DNA of 33,379 bases, taken from positions 7,433-40,811 of the forward strand of contig NZ_JACSQQ010000017.1 in NCBI RefSeq assembly GCF_014836555.1. The letters are read 5' to 3'. Origin of the DNA: Oerskovia rustica (lineage in GTDB: Bacteria; Actinomycetota; Actinomycetes; Actinomycetales; Cellulomonadaceae). The notes below the pieces were generated by a model. It made no database searches and had not been told where the DNA came from. It saw nothing but the letters and a program-made list of their open reading frames with translations. A program made the translations under genes and the position numbers. This document shows positions 15,760-22,551 of this stretch, piece after piece; position 1 is the stretch's first letter; each line of letters starts with the position of its first letter.

Positions 15760-15764
15760 GTCTG

Positions 15765-15850
15765 CGGAGGATGGGGGATTCGAACCCCCGAGGGCTTTTA
15801 ACCCAACACGCTTTCCAAGCGTGCGCCATAGGCCACTAGGCGAATCCTCC
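15765..15850 (-). tRNA. tRNA-Ser (anticodon GGA)
   Basis: Read on the minus strand, the acceptor stem is GGAGGAT with ATCCTCC and discriminator G. The anticodon stem-loop is CACGC-TTGGAAA-GCGTG (anticodon GGA), there is a long variable arm as expected for serine, and the T arm is GGGGG-TTCGAAT-CCCCC. CCA is not encoded. A TATTCT hexamer at 15899 to 15894 is a plausible -10, about 45 nt upstream of the mature 5' end. Confidence 0.96.
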
Positions 15851-15952
15851 GTGCTGCAGCGTCGACCCACGCGGGGCGTCAGGCAGCGTGTCGAGAATAC
15901 CGGACGCCGGGCCTGCGACCGAATCGGCCTGTCCGGGGCCGTGCCGCCCTGG

Positions 15953-15990
15953 CCCAGGAGGGCCGGTTTCGGACGACCGGCCCTCCTGGG
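15953..15990. repeat. 15-bp hairpin just upstream of the SRP RNA promoter
   Basis: CCCAGGAGGGCCGGT (15953-15967) and its exact complement (15976-15990) enclose an 8-nt loop. It ends 1 nt before the SRP RNA -10 element, so the putative -35 lies in the loop. It could block transcription entering from upstream. Confidence 0.7.
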
Positions 15991-15991
15991 C

Positions 15992-15997
15992 TAGGCT
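15992..15997 (+). promoter_or_regulatory. -10 element of the SRP RNA gene
   Basis: TAGGCT at 15992-15997 is followed 6-8 nt later by the predicted RNA 5' end. TTCGGA (15968-15973) with an 18-nt spacer is a weak -35. Confidence 0.6.
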
Positions 15998-16003
15998 GGG
16001 TCC

Positions 16004-16093
16004 AGACCCCTCGTGCGGCGCTATCTCACTGAACTCCCCCAGGGCCGGAAGGCAGCAAGGGCAGGTGGGCTCTGGTGGGTGCACGGGGGGTCC
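16004..16093 (+). ncRNA. ffs: Signal recognition particle RNA, small bacterial (4.5S) type
   Basis: The conserved SRP domain IV apex is present: CAGGGCCGGAAGGCAGCAAGGGC, with the GGAA tetraloop at 16047-16050 closed by CC/GG and the asymmetric AGCA loop that binds Ffh. The ends close in an 11-bp stem, ACCCCTCGTGC (16006-16016) with GCACGGGGGGT (16081-16091), which includes one G-U pair. The RNA folds as one long hairpin of about 88 nt, lacks the Alu domain, and works with Ffh in co-translational membrane targeting. End positions are estimates within a few bases. A TAGGCT -10 lies at the right distance upstream. Confidence 0.94.
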
Positions 16094-16202
16094 TTTCATG
16101 TCCGGGCACCTGGCCGGCGCGGAGGCGTCCAGCGCCCCGACGGCGTCGCTCGCCCGCGCGCCCGGCGTGCTCGTCGTGTCAGGGGTTCCGGAGTGTGGCC
16201 TG

Positions 16203-16341
16203 CGTCATAGATGACGTGCTGATATCGCCACAGAACATGACATGTCGCCCACGATCGACCATGATGCGGACGGTTTTCCGTCCAGCATTTGGAATATCGA
16301 CCACCGCAGTGGTTTTGAGGCGTCGAGCGTGCGCATCATGG
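16203..16341. promoter_or_regulatory. AT-enriched dyad-rich regulatory region upstream of the met leader
   Basis: Bases from about 16203 to 16325 are clearly richer in A/T than the rest. They hold several dyads: CGTCAT-AG-ATGACG (16203-16216), ACATG-A-CATGT (16235-16245), GGACGG-TTTT-CCGTCC (16268-16283) and ACCAC-CGCA-GTGGT (about 16300-16312). The last two lie inside a wide 10-bp pair CCATGATGCG (16259-16268) and CGCATCATGG (16332-16341), so the region could fold as a three-way junction if transcribed, or hold protein sites. No protein-coding gene is visible from 16094 to 16345. Confidence 0.55.
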
Positions 16342-16345
16342 AGCC

Positions 16346-16456
16346 ATGACCCGCCCCACGAGCACCGAGCTCACGACGCACCGCGCAGCAGTCCGCTGCC
16401 GAATGTCGTGTCGCTCCGTCCTGCGTGGCGCCGGTCGAATGTGCTGTCAGCTCTGA
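16346..16456 (+). CDS. Putative Cys-rich leader peptide of metQNI
   Basis: A short frame of 36 codons. The peptide starts MTRPTSTELTTHRAAVRC and ends GRMCCQL; it has four cysteines, two of them adjacent near the end, and three methionines in total. A CATCAT hexamer (16334-16339) ends 6 nt before the ATG, the same leaderless geometry as other genes in this window. Leaderless short ORFs with consecutive Cys codons are known in mycobacteria as cysteine-responsive attenuators, and similar short leader peptides are annotated upstream of actinobacterial sulfur-amino-acid genes. Alternating complementary segments between this ORF and the metQ Shine-Dalgarno strengthen the case. That it is translated and regulatory is an inference. 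Confidence 0.6.
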   Translation: MTRPTSTELTTHRAAVRCRMSCRSVLRGAGRMCCQL

Positions 16457-16557
16457 CCTGACCCCAGCACCGCACCGCCCGCTTCGCGAGCGCAGCCCGG
16501 AGACGACCGGAGCCCGCGCCGCAGCGCCCGCCTCATCCCTTCCTGAACCACCGACCA

Positions 16558-16684
16558 CCGGTGACGTGTCCTCGCGACGCGCGCTCCGTCGTCGGGCAGG
16601 AGGACGTTCCACCTCCCACCCGTCACCACCGTGACGCCCCCCACGGACGCCCCGCGACAACCGCCGGCGCCCGTCACCGGAAGG
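16558..16684 (+). promoter_or_regulatory. Candidate attenuator: four alternately pairing segments ending at the metQ Shine-Dalgarno
   Basis: Segment A is CCGGTGACG (16558-16566), B is CGTCACC (16621-16627), C is GTGACG (16631-16636) and D is CGTCACCGG (16672-16680). A can pair with B (7 bp) or D (9 bp), and C with B (6 bp, CACC loop) or D (6 bp). D runs into the metQ Shine-Dalgarno GGAAGG (16679-16684), so the A-D fold would hide it. This fits a switch controlled by ribosome position on the leader peptide. Confidence 0.5.
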
Positions 16685-16691
16685 ACAGCCC

Positions 16692-17585
16692 ATGCTCCGC
16701 AAGAACCTGACCCTCGCCGCCGTCGCGGCCGCCGCCGCCCTCACGCTCGGGGCGTGCGCCACGACGCCCGCCGACAGCGGTGCCTCGGCAGGCAGCGCCG
16801 ACGACGTCGTCAAGATCGGCGTGGTCGGTGCGCAGGAGGACAAGTGGGCCGTGTTCGAGAAGGTCGCCAAGGAAGAGGGCCTGAACATCGAGATCGTCGA
16901 CTTCGGCGACTACCAGCAGGCCAACCCGTCGCTCTCGCAGGGCCAGATCGACCTCAACCAGTTCCAGCACCTGCAGTTCCTCGCGGGCTACAACGTCGAG
17001 GCCGGCGACGACCTCCAGCCGATCGGCGCCACCGCGGTCTACCCGCTCGCGCTCTACTCGTCCAAGCACACGGCGCTCGAGGACATCCCTGCGGGCGGCG
17101 AGATCGCGATCCCGAACGACGCCACGAACCTCGCGCGCGCGCTCCTCGTCCTCCAGGAGGCGGGGCTCATCGAGCTCAAGGACGGCGGCAGCTCGCTGTC
17201 GACCGAGGCCGACGTGCTCCCGTCCTCGAAGGTCAAGGTCACTCCGGTCTCGGCCGAGCAGACCCCGATCGCCCTGCAGTCGGTCGACGGCGCGGTCGTC
17301 AACAACGACTTCATCAAGGACGCCGGACTCAACCCCGACGACGCCCTGTTCCAGGACGACCCCGACTCCGCCGCGGCCGAGCCCTACATCAACGTGTGGG
17401 TCGCGCGCGCCGAGGACAAGGACGACGAGACGCTCCTGAAGATCGCCGCGCTCTCGCAGAACGAAGAGGTCATCGCCGCCGAGAACGAGTCGTCGGGCAA
17501 CTCCGCCGTCATCAAGAGCAACTCGGCTGCTGAGCTCCAGGAGATCCTCGCGGGGATCGAGAAGAACTACCGCGCCCAGGGCTGA
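16692..17585 (+). CDS. metQ: Methionine ABC transporter substrate-binding lipoprotein MetQ
   Basis: A 297-residue NlpA/MetQ-family lipoprotein. The signal peptide MLRKNLTLAAVAAAAALTLG ends in lipobox L-G-A-C with Cys near residue 21. The family blocks follow: VKIGVVGAQEDKW, IEIVDFGDYQQANPSLSQGQIDLNQFQHLQFL (the ligand-site region), AIPNDATNLARALLVLQEAGLI and GAVVNNDFIKDAG. Known members bind D- or L-methionine outside the membrane and deliver it to MetNI. GGAAGG lies 7 nt before the ATG at 16692. It is the first full gene of metQNI and is separated from metN by 145 nt. Control through the leader described at 16346-16684 is likely. Confidence 0.95.
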   Translation: MLRKNLTLAAVAAAAALTLGACATTPADSGASAGSADDVVKIGVVGAQEDKWAVFEKVAKEEGLNIEIVDFGDYQQANPSLSQGQIDLNQFQHLQFLAGYNVEAGDDLQPIGATAVYPLALYSSKHTALEDIPAGGEIAIPNDATNLARALLVLQEAGLIELKDGGSSLSTEADVLPSSKVKVTPVSAEQTPIALQSVDGAVVNNDFIKDAGLNPDDALFQDDPDSAAAEPYINVWVARAEDKDDETLLKIAALSQNEEVIAAENESSGNSAVIKSNSAAELQEILAGIEKNYRAQG

Positions 17586-17730
17586 GCCCTCGGCACGAGC
17601 CACGGGTGCCCGACGCACCACCCGCGTGTTGGACTGTCCGTACACGCCTGTCGTCCCCCGCACACGACGCGTGGCCACGCGGCTCTCACGAGGAGCCCGG
17701 CCGCCGTACCCCCGCACGAGAGGTTCCTCC

Positions 17731-18990
17731 GTGAGCATCACCTCGGACACGATGGTCAGCTTCCGCGACGCGACGAAGGTCTTCGGGACCGGTCCGTCCG
17801 CCGTGGCCGCCGTCGACGGCGTCACCCTGGACATCCGGGCGGGTGAGATCTTCGGCGTCATCGGCTACTCGGGCGCGGGCAAGAGCACGCTCGTCCGCCT
17901 CATCAACGCCCTCGAACCCGTCACCAGCGGGAGCGTCGTCGTCGACGGCGACGAGGTGAGCGCCCTCGGCGAGCGCGAGCTGCGTCCCGTGCGCGCGAGC
18001 ATCGGCATGATCTTCCAGCAGTTCAACCTCTTGTCCTCGCGGACCGTCGCCGGGAACGTGGCCTACGCCCTCAAGGTCGCGGGCTGGGACAAGCCCCGCC
18101 GTGAGGCCCGCGTCGCCGAGCTGCTCGAGTTCGTCGGCCTGTCCGAGAAGGCCAAGGCCTACCCGTCGCAGCTCTCCGGCGGGCAGAAGCAGCGCGTCGG
18201 GATCGCCCGTGCGCTCGCGACGTCGCCCAAGATCCTGCTCGCCGACGAGGCCACGAGCGCGCTCGACCCCGAGACCACGCGCGACGTGCTCGCGCTCCTG
18301 CGCCGCGTCAACGCCGAGCTCGGCGTGACGATCGTCGTCATCACGCACGAGATGGACGTCGTGCGCTCGACCTGCCACCGCGTCGCGGTCATGGAGCACG
18401 GCAGGGTCGTCGAGGTCGGCGAGGTCTACGACGTGTTCTCGTCGCCGCAGGCGCCCGCGACCAAGAAGTTCGTCGGGACGGCGCTGCGCGACCGGCCCGG
18501 CCCCGAGGCGCTCGAACGCCTGCGGCGCCGCCACCCCGGGCGCCTCGTGACCGTCGGCGTCCACGAGGACGGGACCTCGGGCGCGAGCCTGACGCGGCTC
18601 CTGCGCGAGCACGGGCTCGACGGTGCCGTGGTCTTCGGCGGCATCTCCGAGATCGGGGAGCGGCCCTTCGGCTCCCTCACCCTCGAGCTCGCGGGCGACG
18701 ACGCCACGATCGCGGCGTTCCTCACCGAGCTCGCGGCGACCACCGACGTCGTGGACCTCGGGACCGCCGCGGACCCGCGCGACGACCCGCGCGTCGTGGC
18801 CGGGGCGAGCGACGAGTCGGGCGAGGCCGACGACGCCACCGGGGCTCCGCCGTCGGGCCGCGTCGACGAACCCGACCCGCGCGACGCCTGGCAGAGCGAG
18901 AGATGGCCCGGGACGGGAGGCCCCGGCACGCAGGGGACCCAGCCCGGTGACCGCGGCGGCAGGACCGGCACGTTCGGAGGGGAGCGATGA
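17731..18990 (+). CDS. metN: Methionine ABC transporter ATP-binding protein MetN
   Basis: A 419-residue ATPase. Walker A GYSGAGKST is near residue 50, the Q-loop is IGMIFQQFNLLSSRTV, the signature is LSGGQKQRVGIARAL, Walker B is ILLADEATSALDP, and the switch histidine is in VITHEMDVV. A C-terminal NIL domain (LVTVGVHEDGT to AATTDVVDL, about residues 270-350) is the methionine-sensing domain known to give feedback inhibition. A further tail of about 70 residues, rich in Gly, Pro, Asp and Arg, is unusual for MetN. The start is GTG 17731, with GAGAGG 7 nt upstream; the longer frame to 17626 lacks a signal. In the 145-nt gap after metQ, GGTGC-CCGAC-GCACC near 17605-17620 is a small hairpin that may reduce read-through. 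Confidence 0.95.
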   Translation: MSITSDTMVSFRDATKVFGTGPSAVAAVDGVTLDIRAGEIFGVIGYSGAGKSTLVRLINALEPVTSGSVVVDGDEVSALGERELRPVRASIGMIFQQFNLLSSRTVAGNVAYALKVAGWDKPRREARVAELLEFVGLSEKAKAYPSQLSGGQKQRVGIARALATSPKILLADEATSALDPETTRDVLALLRRVNAELGVTIVVITHEMDVVRSTCHRVAVMEHGRVVEVGEVYDVFSSPQAPATKKFVGTALRDRPGPEALERLRRRHPGRLVTVGVHEDGTSGASLTRLLREHGLDGAVVFGGISEIGERPFGSLTLELAGDDATIAAFLTELAATTDVVDLGTAADPRDDPRVVAGASDESGEADDATGAPPSGRVDEPDPRDAWQSERWPGTGGPGTQGTQPGDRGGRTGTFGGER

Positions 18991-19649
18991 ACCGCGACTG
19001 GTCCACCCTGTGGCCGATCCTGCTGTCCTCGCTGGGCGAGACGCTCTACATGGTCTCGATCGCGCTCCTCGCGGGCGGGCTCGGAGGCCTGGTGCTGGGG
19101 CTCGCGCTCTACTGCACGCGCAAGGGCAACCTGTTGGCCAACAGCGTGGTGTTCAACGTCCTCAACGTGCTCGTCAACATCGTCCGGCCCATCCCGTTCA
19201 TCATCTTCCTGACGATGATCTACCCCGTGACGCTCGCGGTCGTCGGGACGACGATCGGTACCGAGGCGTTCATCCTGCCGCTGTCCGTCATGACCGCGTT
19301 CGGGACCTCGCGCATCGTCGAGCAGAACCTCGTGAGCATCGACCCGGGCGTGGTCGAGGCGGCGCGCGCCATGGGGGCCTCGCCGTGGCGGATCATCCGG
19401 ACGGTCCTCATCCCCGAGGCGCTCGCGCCGCTCATCCTGGGCTACACGTTCATCTTCGTGGCCGTGATCGACATGTCCGCGATGGCCGGCTACATCGGCG
19501 GCGGTGGCCTGGGCGACTTCGCGATCCGGTACGGCTACCAGCGCTACAACTGGGCCGTGACGGCCGTGACGGTCGTGGTCATCATCGTGATCGTGCAGGT
19601 CGTCCAGTTCTTCGGGAACTGGCTCGCGCGCAAGGTCCTGCGGCGCTGA
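18987..19649 (+). CDS. metI: Methionine ABC transporter permease MetI
   Basis: A 220-residue permease with five hydrophobic helices. It carries the binding-protein-dependent permease loop EAARAMGASPWRIIRTVLIPEALAPLI (EAA motif), which docks on MetN, preceded by VRPIPFIIFLTMIYPVT and followed by GYIGGGGLGDFAIRYGYQRYNW, all typical of MetI. The ATG overlaps the metN stop by 4 nt (ATGA) and has GGAGGGGAG just upstream. It completes the MetQ-MetN-MetI importer. A strong hairpin follows at 19672-19697. Confidence 0.96.
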   Translation: MNRDWSTLWPILLSSLGETLYMVSIALLAGGLGGLVLGLALYCTRKGNLLANSVVFNVLNVLVNIVRPIPFIIFLTMIYPVTLAVVGTTIGTEAFILPLSVMTAFGTSRIVEQNLVSIDPGVVEAARAMGASPWRIIRTVLIPEALAPLILGYTFIFVAVIDMSAMAGYIGGGGLGDFAIRYGYQRYNWAVTAVTVVVIIVIVQVVQFFGNWLARKVLRR

Positions 19650-19764: not shown

Positions 19765-22551
19765 GTGAGCACCGCCCTGTACCGCCGCTACCGGCCAGAG
19801 ACCTTCGCCGAGGTCATCGGGCAGGACCACGTCACCGGACCGCTGCGGCAGGCGCTGCGCAGCGGACGCGTGAACCACGCCTACCTCTTCTCGGGCCCCC
19901 GCGGCTGCGGCAAGACGACCTCGGCGCGCATCCTCGCGCGCACCCTGAACTGCGCGCGCAACACCGAGGAGACGCCCGTCGACACCCCCTGCGGGGAGTG
20001 CTCGTCGTGCGTCGAGCTCGCGCGCGGCGGCTCGGGCAGCCTCGACGTGATCGAGATCGACGCGGCGTCGCACAACGGTGTCGACGACGCCCGCGAGCTG
20101 CGTGAGCGCGCGACCTTCGCGCCCGCCCGCGACCGGTACAAGATCTTCATCCTCGACGAGGCCCACATGGTCACGCCGCAGGGCTTCAACGCGCTCCTCA
20201 AGCTCGTCGAGGAGCCCCCGCCGCACGTGAAGTTCATCTTCGCGACCACCGAGCCGGACAAGGTCATCGGGACCATCCGCTCGCGTACCCACCACTACCC
20301 GTTCCGCCTCGTCCCGCCGGACGTCCTGGGCCCGTACCTCGAGCAGCTCTGCGCCGCGGAGGGCGTGACCATCGGCACAGGCGTCGTGCCGCTCGTCGTG
20401 CGCTCGGGCGGTGGCTCGGTGCGTGACTCGCTGTCCGTCATGGACCAGCTCATCGCGGGCGCCGAGGCCGGGAACGTCGACTACGAGCGCGCCGTGGACC
20501 TCCTGGGCTTCACGCACGCCTCGCTGCTCGACGACGTCGTGGAAGCCCTCGCGGCCCGCGACGGCGCGAGCATCTTCCGCGTCGTCGAGCAGATCATCAC
20601 CACGGGGCACGAGCCGCGCCGCTTCGTCGAGGACCTCCTCGAGCGCCTGCGCGACCTCATCGTCATCTCCGTCTCCGGCGGGGCCGCGGACGCCGTGCTG
20701 CGCGACGTCCCGTCCGACCAGCTCGACCGCATGAAGGCCCAGGCGCAGAACCTCGGCGCGGCCGAGCTCTCGCGCGCGGCGGACCTCGTCAACGCGGCGC
20801 TCACCGAGATGAGCGGCGCCACGTCACCCCGCCTGCACCTCGAGCTCCTGTGCGCGCGCCTCCTGCTCCCCGGCGTGGACGACGGCGCCGCGGGGCTCGC
20901 GGCCCGCATCGACCGGTTGGAGCGGGGCGGGCTGGGAACCGGTGGGCTCGCGCCTGGCGCACCGCGACCCGGCGCCCCCGAGGGCCTCGCCGCTGCCGCG
21001 CCCCGTGGGCCGCGGGTCGAGGACGACGCACCCGTCGCCCCCGTGAACGGGCTCAGCGGAGCCGCGGCCGCACGTGCCGCGCTCCAGGCCCGCAAGGCGG
21101 GGGAGGGGGCTGCGGCTGCTTCGACCGCGCCGGGCGCACCCGCCTCGCCGACTACGGCTCCCGTGCCTTCTGCTGTGCCCGACGTGGTGCCCGTCGACGT
21201 GATGCCCGTCGACGTGGTGCCGGTTGTGGAGGTGCCGACCGAAGCGGTGGCTCCTGCTCCTGCCTCGTCGGGCGCGCCGGACGCCCGGGCGACCGACGAG
21301 TGGCCGGTCGTGGTGCCGGTCGGCACCGCAGAGGCCGCACCTGCCACGTCGGAGGCCGGTGCCGAGGCCGCACCCGGGGGTGAGGACTCTCCGGCCGTCT
21401 CCCCGGTTCCCGACCACGGGACCACGCCCACGGCCGAGCCGGTGCACGCCGCGCCGGTCGAACCGGCGGCGCAGCAGGTCGCCGTGCCCGCCGCGCCTGC
21501 CGCACCGGCAGGGCCCTCGGCGACGTCGACCGACACCGCGGCGCTGACCCTGCGCTGGCCCGAGGTCCTCGAGACGCTGAGCACCATCAAGCGCCTCACG
21601 TGGATGCTCGTGCGCGACAACGCCGAGGTCGCCGAGCTCACGGAGAGCACGCTCGTGCTCAGCTTCAGCAACGGTGGCGCCGCAGGCTCGTTCCGCAACG
21701 GCAACAACTCGGCCGCGCTCCAGGAAGCGGTGCACAAGACGCTCGGGTTCCAGGTCCGGATCGACGTCCAGATCGACGAGGGCGACGGGACCCCCCGGGC
21801 CCGGACCACGGCTGGTCCCGCTCCCGTCCCCTCCCCGCAGCCCGCGTCGGGGGCGACGCCCCCGGCGCGTCCCCTCGACGCACCGGTGACACCGCCGACG
21901 CCTTCGACACCTCCGCAGCGGGAGGCGTCGGGTGGTGCCGCTCCCCCGACCGGTCAGGTGCCCGGTGCCGGCTCGGTGCCGAGCGCCCCCACCGCACCCC
22001 AGGGCACGGGAGCGCTCCAGGTCTCCGGCGAGACGGCGGCGGTCACCGACCAGCGCGGCGGCGTCGCCCTCCAGGAGCGACCCGACCCGGCGTCGCAGCC
22101 CTCCACCCCGGTTGCGGTGGCACCTGTCGTCGAGCCCCCGGTCGTGAACGCGGCCGACGAGGCCTGGCTCGCGGGCCTGCCCGTGACCGAGCCTCCCGCC
22201 GACCTCGACGAGGGCCACGAACCGCCGCCTGCGGACGTGCGGCCAGCCGCGCCGTCGGGCAGCGGGACCGGGCAGCGCCCCTCGGCGCCGACGGCACCCA
22301 GTGCGCCGACACCCGCCGTCCCCACGGGGCCCGCGCCGGGCGTGCGCGAGACGCGCCGCCAGACGCTCGAACGGCAGGCCGCCGAGCAGAAGGCCCGGCA
22401 GTCGTCGGCGCGCGTCGCGGTCTCGATGGACGACGACTCGCCGTCCGACGACGACCCGGACCTCGCGTCGTCGGGCCTGGTCGGTGCGCCGCTCGTCGCC
22501 CAGCTGCTGGGCGGCGTCGTGATCGACGAGACCATCGACACCGGGATCTGA
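19765..22551 (+). CDS. dnaX: DNA polymerase III subunit gamma/tau
   Basis: A 928-residue clamp-loader subunit. The AAA+ module is in the first 370 residues: YRRYRPETFAEVIGQDHV at the start, Walker A SGPRGCGKTTSARIL near residue 42, four zinc-binding cysteines around LNCARNTEETPVDTPCGECSSC, Walker B FILDEAHMV, and sensor regions IFATTEPDKVIGTIRSRT. After residue about 375 comes a long Ala/Pro/Val-rich linker with a short repeat (VPVDVMPVDVVPV), then a folded block RWPEVLETLSTIKRLTWMLVRDNAEV (tau domain III, residues about 595-680), and a second linker to the end. Start GTG 19765 is supported by the TAGAGT element and the conserved N-terminus. The next gene starts 2 nt after the stop. Confidence 0.97.
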   Translation: MSTALYRRYRPETFAEVIGQDHVTGPLRQALRSGRVNHAYLFSGPRGCGKTTSARILARTLNCARNTEETPVDTPCGECSSCVELARGGSGSLDVIEIDAASHNGVDDARELRERATFAPARDRYKIFILDEAHMVTPQGFNALLKLVEEPPPHVKFIFATTEPDKVIGTIRSRTHHYPFRLVPPDVLGPYLEQLCAAEGVTIGTGVVPLVVRSGGGSVRDSLSVMDQLIAGAEAGNVDYERAVDLLGFTHASLLDDVVEALAARDGASIFRVVEQIITTGHEPRRFVEDLLERLRDLIVISVSGGAADAVLRDVPSDQLDRMKAQAQNLGAAELSRAADLVNAALTEMSGATSPRLHLELLCARLLLPGVDDGAAGLAARIDRLERGGLGTGGLAPGAPRPGAPEGLAAAAPRGPRVEDDAPVAPVNGLSGAAAARAALQARKAGEGAAAASTAPGAPASPTTAPVPSAVPDVVPVDVMPVDVVPVVEVPTEAVAPAPASSGAPDARATDEWPVVVPVGTAEAAPATSEAGAEAAPGGEDSPAVSPVPDHGTTPTAEPVHAAPVEPAAQQVAVPAAPAAPAGPSATSTDTAALTLRWPEVLETLSTIKRLTWMLVRDNAEVAELTESTLVLSFSNGGAAGSFRNGNNSAALQEAVHKTLGFQVRIDVQIDEGDGTPRARTTAGPAPVPSPQPASGATPPARPLDAPVTPPTPSTPPQREASGGAAPPTGQVPGAGSVPSAPTAPQGTGALQVSGETAAVTDQRGGVALQERPDPASQPSTPVAVAPVVEPPVVNAADEAWLAGLPVTEPPADLDEGHEPPPADVRPAAPSGSGTGQRPSAPTAPSAPTPAVPTGPAPGVRETRRQTLERQAAEQKARQSSARVAVSMDDDSPSDDDPDLASSGLVGAPLVAQLLGGVVIDETIDTGI

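Follow-up and report, generated by a model that had tools for sequence, protein, structure and literature searches.

A short, cysteine-rich open reading frame precedes the metQNI operon of Oerskovia rustica, and its conservation in related genomes is far beyond chance. Our confidence that this leader ORF is real and under selection is very high. Judged by its sequence, the leader likely serves as a sensor of sulfur amino-acid supply. It carries a constraint on synonymous codons, CGA before AUG, that is invisible in an alignment of the peptides. We tentatively favor the view that the leader is part of an attenuator that adjusts metQNI to the availability of cysteine, and probably of methionine, and operates via Rho; we would put the chances of this reading a little short of even.

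The leader ORF and the metQNI operon

The window, i.e. the whole stretch of 33,379 nucleotides that was analysed, contains the following features at the leader and the operon.

16334 to 16339, plus strand: -10-like hexamer CATCAT, a candidate with 4 of 6 matches to TATAAT and a spacing that suits a leaderless start at the leader ATG
16346 to 16456, plus strand: leader ORF of 36 codons, C-terminal part rich in Cys, Met and Arg, translation MTRPTSTELTTHRAAVRCRMSCRSVLRGAGRMCCQL followed by the stop
16400 to 16405, plus strand: first CGA-ATG (Arg19-Met20), preceded by Arg17-Cys18
16436 to 16441, plus strand: second CGA-ATG (Arg31-Met32), the conserved rare codon pair
16442 to 16447, plus strand: tandem Cys codons TGC-TGT (Cys33-Cys34), as read from the sequence
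16679 to 16685, plus strand: Shine-Dalgarno-like GGAAGGA of metQ, as read from the sequence, conserved in 7 Oerskovia
16692 to 17585, plus strand: metQ, NlpA/MetQ lipoprotein (PF03180)
17752 to 18990, plus strand: metN, ABC ATPase with NIL domain, start codon uncertain, TIGR02314 below cut-off
18987 to 19649, plus strand: metI, permease, NF008049 below cut-off

The 36-codon ORF with adjacent Cys codons near its end, which a preliminary description of this DNA had pointed out, is indeed present. In front of its first CGA-ATG the window's leader has Arg-Cys (16394-16399), a place taken by Cys-Cys in 5 of the 7 Oerskovia. The operon was identified as metQ-metN-metI by Pfam, and the best NCBIfam models were MetQ, MetN and MetI, each below its cut-off; by these matches the leader heads a sulfur-related operon. 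Among 14 named loci the closest MetQ was that of Oerskovia douganii (Cellulomonadaceae) with 97% identity. A leaderless mRNA start at the window's leader ATG is likely from the sequence, while a promoter consensus scan of the window returned a single promoter-like site at 16237-16265 instead of CATCAT.

The surroundings of the operon were searched for known RNA elements. Rfam matches in the window were limited to a small SRP RNA and a tRNA, with no riboswitch of the SAM type and no T-box. The small SRP RNA gene (16002-16098, plus strand) lies closely upstream of the leader and a tRNA-Ser gene occupies 15764-15850 on the minus strand. ARAGORN additionally reported a tRNA with undetermined anticodon at 21262-21354 on the minus strand, which is absent from Rfam at gathering score and probably spurious.

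A MetQ match was present in 119 of the 150 Cellulomonadaceae genomes. Conservation of the ORF in relatives, on which the preliminary description had staked its reading, turned out to be strong: a Cys-bearing counterpart of 29 to 40 codons was accepted 5' of metQ in 98 of 108 upstream regions from 22 genera, although this conservation may be flattered, the 98 leaders having been hand-picked on their Cys content, length, position and resemblance, with codon choice playing no part. The ten regions without an accepted leader were L071, L076, L088, L098, L100, L106, L110, L114, L117 and L122; MetQ matches weaker than about 1e-60 and one of the two matches in G113 were left out. Cys and Met made up 336 and 233 of the 3145 residues of the 98 leaders, start excluded (11% and 7%). 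At least two Cys were present in 93 of the 98 leaders and tandem Cys in 65, being absent from the other 33. The peptide shared by the leaders is confined to a short core of the MCCR plus GRMC type, with a mean column identity of 43%. NANNNT stood at leaderless distance from the start in 87 of 98 leaders compared with 53 of 880 other ATGs, where the former count is not independent because the feature also served to choose among leader starts. The metQ loci of other taxa (L007-L014) had no convincing Cys leader, and weak profile matches in Oerskovia yielded no leader in the five stretches inspected out of seven.

The CGA-AUG codon pair in two leader families

The preliminary description had not mentioned the codon pair CGA-AUG, which emerged here as an additional feature of the leader. 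Arg before Met was encoded by CGA in 89 of 94 cases in the 98 leaders, compared with 11 of the 470 Arg codons in other contexts. Ordinary long ORFs used CGA for about 6% of Arg codons, and before ATG in 0 of 25 cases at Oerskovia loci and in 2 of 32 at other loci. CGA-ATG occurred in frame in 82 of the 98 leaders and out of frame in none, and the CGA of Arg-Met was within two codons of a Cys codon in 70 of 89 cases. Yet the pair is not universal, being present in 16 of the 22 genera and absent from 6. Codon choice was unusual at cysteine, too: TGT made up 63 of 159 tandem Cys codons of the Cellulomonadaceae versus 13 of 142 Cys codons in ordinary ORFs, and third-position GC was 0.68 in the core versus 0.88 outside.

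Two explanations of the pair were rejected. Pairing of CGAATG with a downstream complement failed since CATTCG is found downstream in just 2 of 98 leaders. Frameshifting at CGA-AUG was dismissed as metQ is reached from 33 of the 82 leaders in one shifted frame and from 11 in the other. A transcription-pause consensus matched only part of the leaders.

According to PMC4046918, the Salmonella his leader is read more slowly at CGA than at CGC or CGU, and work cited there has the Cys tRNA, among others, reading NNC faster than NNU. The simplest reading of CGA plus UGU would be that slow synonymous codons are placed beside the sensed codons, and a slow codon pair as a tuned element is plausible from the sequence. 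The slow-codon reading leaves the AUG after CGA unexplained; methionine might be a second sensed amino acid.

A second family was found to have the same core in front of a different gene. Scanning 297 genomes of the order for the pattern ATGTGYTGYCGAATG turned it up in 20, of which 19 belonged to one family (f19); in the class it was present in 13 of 296 genomes, one outside the order. The reversed control matched nowhere among the genomes listed for the order scan and at one place in the class scan. The f19 matches stand 5' of a winged-helix regulator gene (PF00486 at the C-terminus of the protein), which was detected in 59 of 60 f19 genomes, each from another genus. When 30 f19 loci were chosen by the regulator gene, 29 had a leader whose C-terminus was CCRMC or similar, and every one of these carried CGA-ATG. 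The filter for this count was Cys spacing and that for the codon statistics was Arg-Met near the leader end, which kept 28 of the 30 leaders and missed L187 and L203; neither filter used the codon. The same leader precedes the same regulator gene in Agromyces terreus, A. salentinus and Gulosibacter sediminis, and because Agromyces belongs to the Microbacteriaceae, f19 very probably represents this family.

The core common to both families is Cys-Cys-Arg(CGA)-Met-Cys, which in f19 is located at the leader end. In the 28 second-family leaders Cys was encoded by TGT in 57 of 82 cases versus 11 of 121 in ordinary ORFs, third-position GC was 0.22 in the core versus 0.82 outside, and the sole Arg-Met without CGA fell outside the core. 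TTGAC was found at -48 to -28 in 24 of these 28 leaders.

The fixation of six bases in 82 of the 98 metQ leaders and in all 29 second-family leaders, together with the low third-position GC of the second-family core, could also mean that CGAAUG is an RNA motif for a protein or another RNA and that its meaning as codons is incidental. We consider this improbable: the hexamer is always in frame, though inheritance alone could hold the frame, its flanking bases vary, its complement is rare, and with 6 to 7 bases only the motif would be very short. If the ORF encoded a small protein that acts independently, this would account for a peptide core conserved across genera. That is hard to reconcile with the brevity of the common core, with fixed synonymous codons and with the location of the ORF before metQ in one family and before a regulator gene in the other, and we give it next to no credence. 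Somewhat better, yet still on the unlikely side, is the idea that UGY / CGA-AUG is a portable stall module. A rare and inefficiently read Arg codon would be selected before Met and beside Cys in two families with unrelated genes, and reading speed, rather than an RNA hairpin, would set the sulfur threshold while Rho decides.

The winged-helix regulator gene behind the CCRMC leader (L177-L206 and L227-L229) is uncharacterised; its position behind this leader makes it a candidate for regulating sulfur metabolism. Homologues of the regulator in Oerskovia (L207 and L208) had no CGAATG and no convincing Cys leader. The pattern GGGCGAATGTGC occurred in the order at 13 places in 11 of 59 genomes compared with 2 places for the reversed control; none of the ten of these 13 places that were inspected (L215-L224) was convincing as a leader. 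The one MCCRM match outside the order (L169) was inside a longer open frame and did not qualify as a clear leader. In a genome of another family (L142 in G228, family f20) a frame ending in ALMCCRMCGQQA lies 5' of genes for an ABC ATPase and a permease. NCBIfam matches of this ATPase include taurine and sulfonate transporters, all below cut-off, so that it is possibly of the taurine/sulfonate type.

RNA structure between the leader and metQ

The interval between the leader stop and metQ contains the following elements.

16457 to 16678, plus strand: C-rich, G-poor spacer from the leader stop to the metQ Shine-Dalgarno, a candidate Rho-loading region
16558 to 16566, plus strand: segment A, CCGGTGACG, invariant in 7 Oerskovia
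16621 to 16627, plus strand: segment B, CGTCACC, invariant in 7 Oerskovia
16631 to 16636, plus strand: segment C, GTGACG, altered in 3 of the 7 Oerskovia, with two pairs lost in 2 of those
16672 to 16680, plus strand: segment D, CGTCACCGG, invariant in 7 Oerskovia, extends into the Shine-Dalgarno

The preliminary description had combined segments A to D into an RNA switch that controls metQ translation, and all four are exactly where it had placed them, D extending into the metQ Shine-Dalgarno. A perfect 9-bp inverted repeat between the leader stop and metQ was obtained in 154 of 1000 dinucleotide shuffles, and in 26 of 1000 when the 3' arm was to lie in the last 32 nt before metQ. The whole leader-to-metQ RNA was more stable than its shuffles with a z of -2.98 (0 of 100 as stable), the 161-nt part with A-D moderately so with a z of -1.63 (12 of 200 as stable). 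The seven Oerskovia species show no variation in any of the 9 A-D or 7 A-B pairs, which makes these pairs uninformative as to whether pairing occurs. In 2 of the 7 species (G023 and G043) B-C has lost two pairs and so has C-D, and there was no both-sided, covarying change in any named pair among the seven. RNAalifold on the Oerskovia alignment kept part of A-D and gave one both-sided change in a neighbouring helix.

If control were by translational attenuation, pairing would hide the metQ ribosome-binding site (RBS) and a ribosome stalled on the Cys codons would free it. This mechanism has been reported for mycobacteria (cited in PMC13236596). It agrees with the invariance of A and D while their neighbours vary, with the presence of A-D in predicted folds of the 161-nt part and partly in the alignment fold, and with the stability of the leader-to-metQ RNA. 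The expected effect of a stalled ribosome was, however, absent from 24 metQ loci from 22 genera. The metQ RBS was predicted to be at least as accessible as the shuffled mean in 18 of the 24, and a ribosome on the last Cys codon shifted RBS access by 0.005 on average compared with 0.0055 in shuffles, as calculated by folding at 37 °C, which does not represent co-transcriptional folding. In the window itself the footprint changed access by 0.014, a value reached by 18 of 25 shuffles. No shared k-mer or motif of the spacers exceeded the null expectation. In the second family the footprint changed access by 0.015 versus 0.0002 in shuffles (26 loci), 3 of the 26 being above all 20 of their own shuffles; this predicted shift is a hint at most of a structural opening. 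Taken together with the broken segment C in 2 of 7 species and the lack of both-sided changes in the named pairs, translational attenuation appears a rather poor candidate.

Thus the case for the four-segment RNA switch is weak. The comparison with relatives suggested at the outset found the Cys-bearing ORF conserved and gave no compensatory change in A-D. Of the proposal that a ribosome stall signals Cys or Met supply, the Cys-rich leader before metQNI and the leaderless-type spacing in most relatives are supported, and the RNA switch as its output is not supported.

A possible role of Rho, and related control systems

The preliminary description had itself voiced a doubt, namely that A lies about 100 nt past the leader stop and that Rho might be needed. 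A role of Rho, putative as it is, is the better fit to the spacers. Over 16457-16691 the window has 48% C and 27% G. The spacers of the 98 leaders contain 47% C and 27.5% G, with C exceeding G in 98 of 98 and a C/G ratio above 1.3 in 95, and in the second family they were C-rich and G-poor in 26 of 26. Control 5' flanks had C above G in 34 of 45 and a C/G ratio above 1.3 in 17 of 45; the latter applied to 3 of 6 metQ flanks without a Cys leader. The C excess of the window carries on into metQ. Second-family spacers were not less structured than shuffles (0.404 versus 0.439 unpaired). A rho gene is present in the genome, and positions 15900-17700 of the window contain no terminator-like site, i.e. 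GC-rich hairpin with T run. From these sequence features we rate the chance that Rho is the effector as about even.

In the attenuator that we favor, low levels of charged tRNA-Cys, or tRNA-Met, would cause the ribosome to stall in the Cys / CGA-AUG / Cys core near the leader end. The stalled ribosome would block the loading of Rho on the C-rich RNA, or its movement along it, and metQNI would be transcribed. With ample supply the ribosome would run to the stop codon, leave the spacer bare, and transcription would be ended by Rho upstream of metQ. How long the pause lasts would be set by slow synonymous codons, CGA for Arg and often UGU for Cys. We infer that the leader is translated, that ribosomes stall on it, which amino acids are the signal, that Rho takes part and which way control runs; the order of starvation, stall and expression is the one expected from the CruR-like anatomy discussed below. 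Several points speak against the Rho attenuator. A single stalled ribosome covers little of a spacer of about 135 to 380 nt, CGA-AUG is missing in 6 of 22 genera and tandem Cys in 33 of 98 leaders, a C excess is common in control flanks, and the full leader RNA is unusually stable.

A competition of this kind is known from the tryptophanase operon of E. coli, where the arrest peptide TnaC senses free tryptophan and the ribosome stalled at the leader end keeps Rho away. The metQ leader would share the stalled ribosome opposing Rho, whereas its signal would likely be codon supply and not a free amino acid. In the classical leader peptides, such as his and ilvB1 of M. tuberculosis (PMC13236596), codons of the amino acid concerned are used as they are here; a terminator-like site is not found here.

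For CruR of Bordetella pertussis PMC9426467 proposes that a stalled ribosome on the uORF keeps Rho off a C>G bubble. The Cys-bearing uORF, the C>G bubble before the next gene and the proposed choice between stalled ribosome and Rho are the same as here. CruR differs in that it is a DUF2946 protein, is much longer (well above 100 residues), has CXXC and RAPP motifs and senses copper; none of this was seen in the leaders of 29 to 40 residues, and neither CXXC nor a C-terminal RAPP was conserved in the 98 leaders. Because CruR senses copper via its CXXC motif and acts through Rho (PMC9426467), and the core of the metQ leader is rich in Met and Cys, the nascent peptide might instead sense a soft metal such as copper, or redox state, with binding altering stalling and the access of Rho. 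We regard this as quite unlikely. Apart from the missing CXXC motif, even the CC pair is absent from 33 of 98 leaders, the fixed synonymous codons favor reading speed over the peptide alone, and the operon serves methionine uptake.

By comparison of sequence and predicted folds, the anatomy resembles that of the mycobacterial cysteine sensor, but folding did not recover the structural output reported there. Mycobacterial polycysteine leaders were reportedly tested by Canestrari et al. 2020 (Mol Microbiol 114:93), who are reported to have implicated RNA structure and stalling at Cys codons. Cys-rich leaderless short ORFs of mycobacteria are known from Shell et al. 2015 (PMC4633059), and later work on polycysteine leaders is cited in PMC13236596, PMC9031893 and PMC9094748. 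The mycobacterial ORFs and the metQ leader have in common a short Cys-rich ORF, a start that in the metQ leader is putatively of the leaderless type, a sulfur-related operon and stalling at Cys as the proposed sensor. The metQ leader differs in belonging to another order-level lineage, in preceding metQNI, in its fixed CGA-AUG and its richness in Met, and in its long C-rich spacer; the structural control of the RBS described there is unsupported by folding here. New are CGA before Met and the same core before a different gene in a second family. A literature search that omitted most subscription journals and bioRxiv returned nothing that we recognised as dealing with the CGA-AUG pair or with leaders of this kind in either Cellulomonadaceae or Microbacteriaceae. 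If the proposed attenuator is correct, control by cysteine leader peptides would reach beyond mycobacteria, into Cellulomonadaceae and Microbacteriaceae, and would take in methionine uptake as well.

Finally, the regions upstream of the leaders contain an operator-like inverted repeat, GTCTC-N7-GAGAC, at about -67 to -70 and -90 to -94 from the leader ATG (e.g. L095, L077 and L085). At least 8 of its 10 half-site bases were matched in 28 of 98 regions compared with 3 of 98 when shuffled. The repeat was not above shuffles in the second family. In the window, positions 16280-16294 bear a weak similarity to it. Via this repeat a DNA-binding sulfur regulator may act on the leader promoter.
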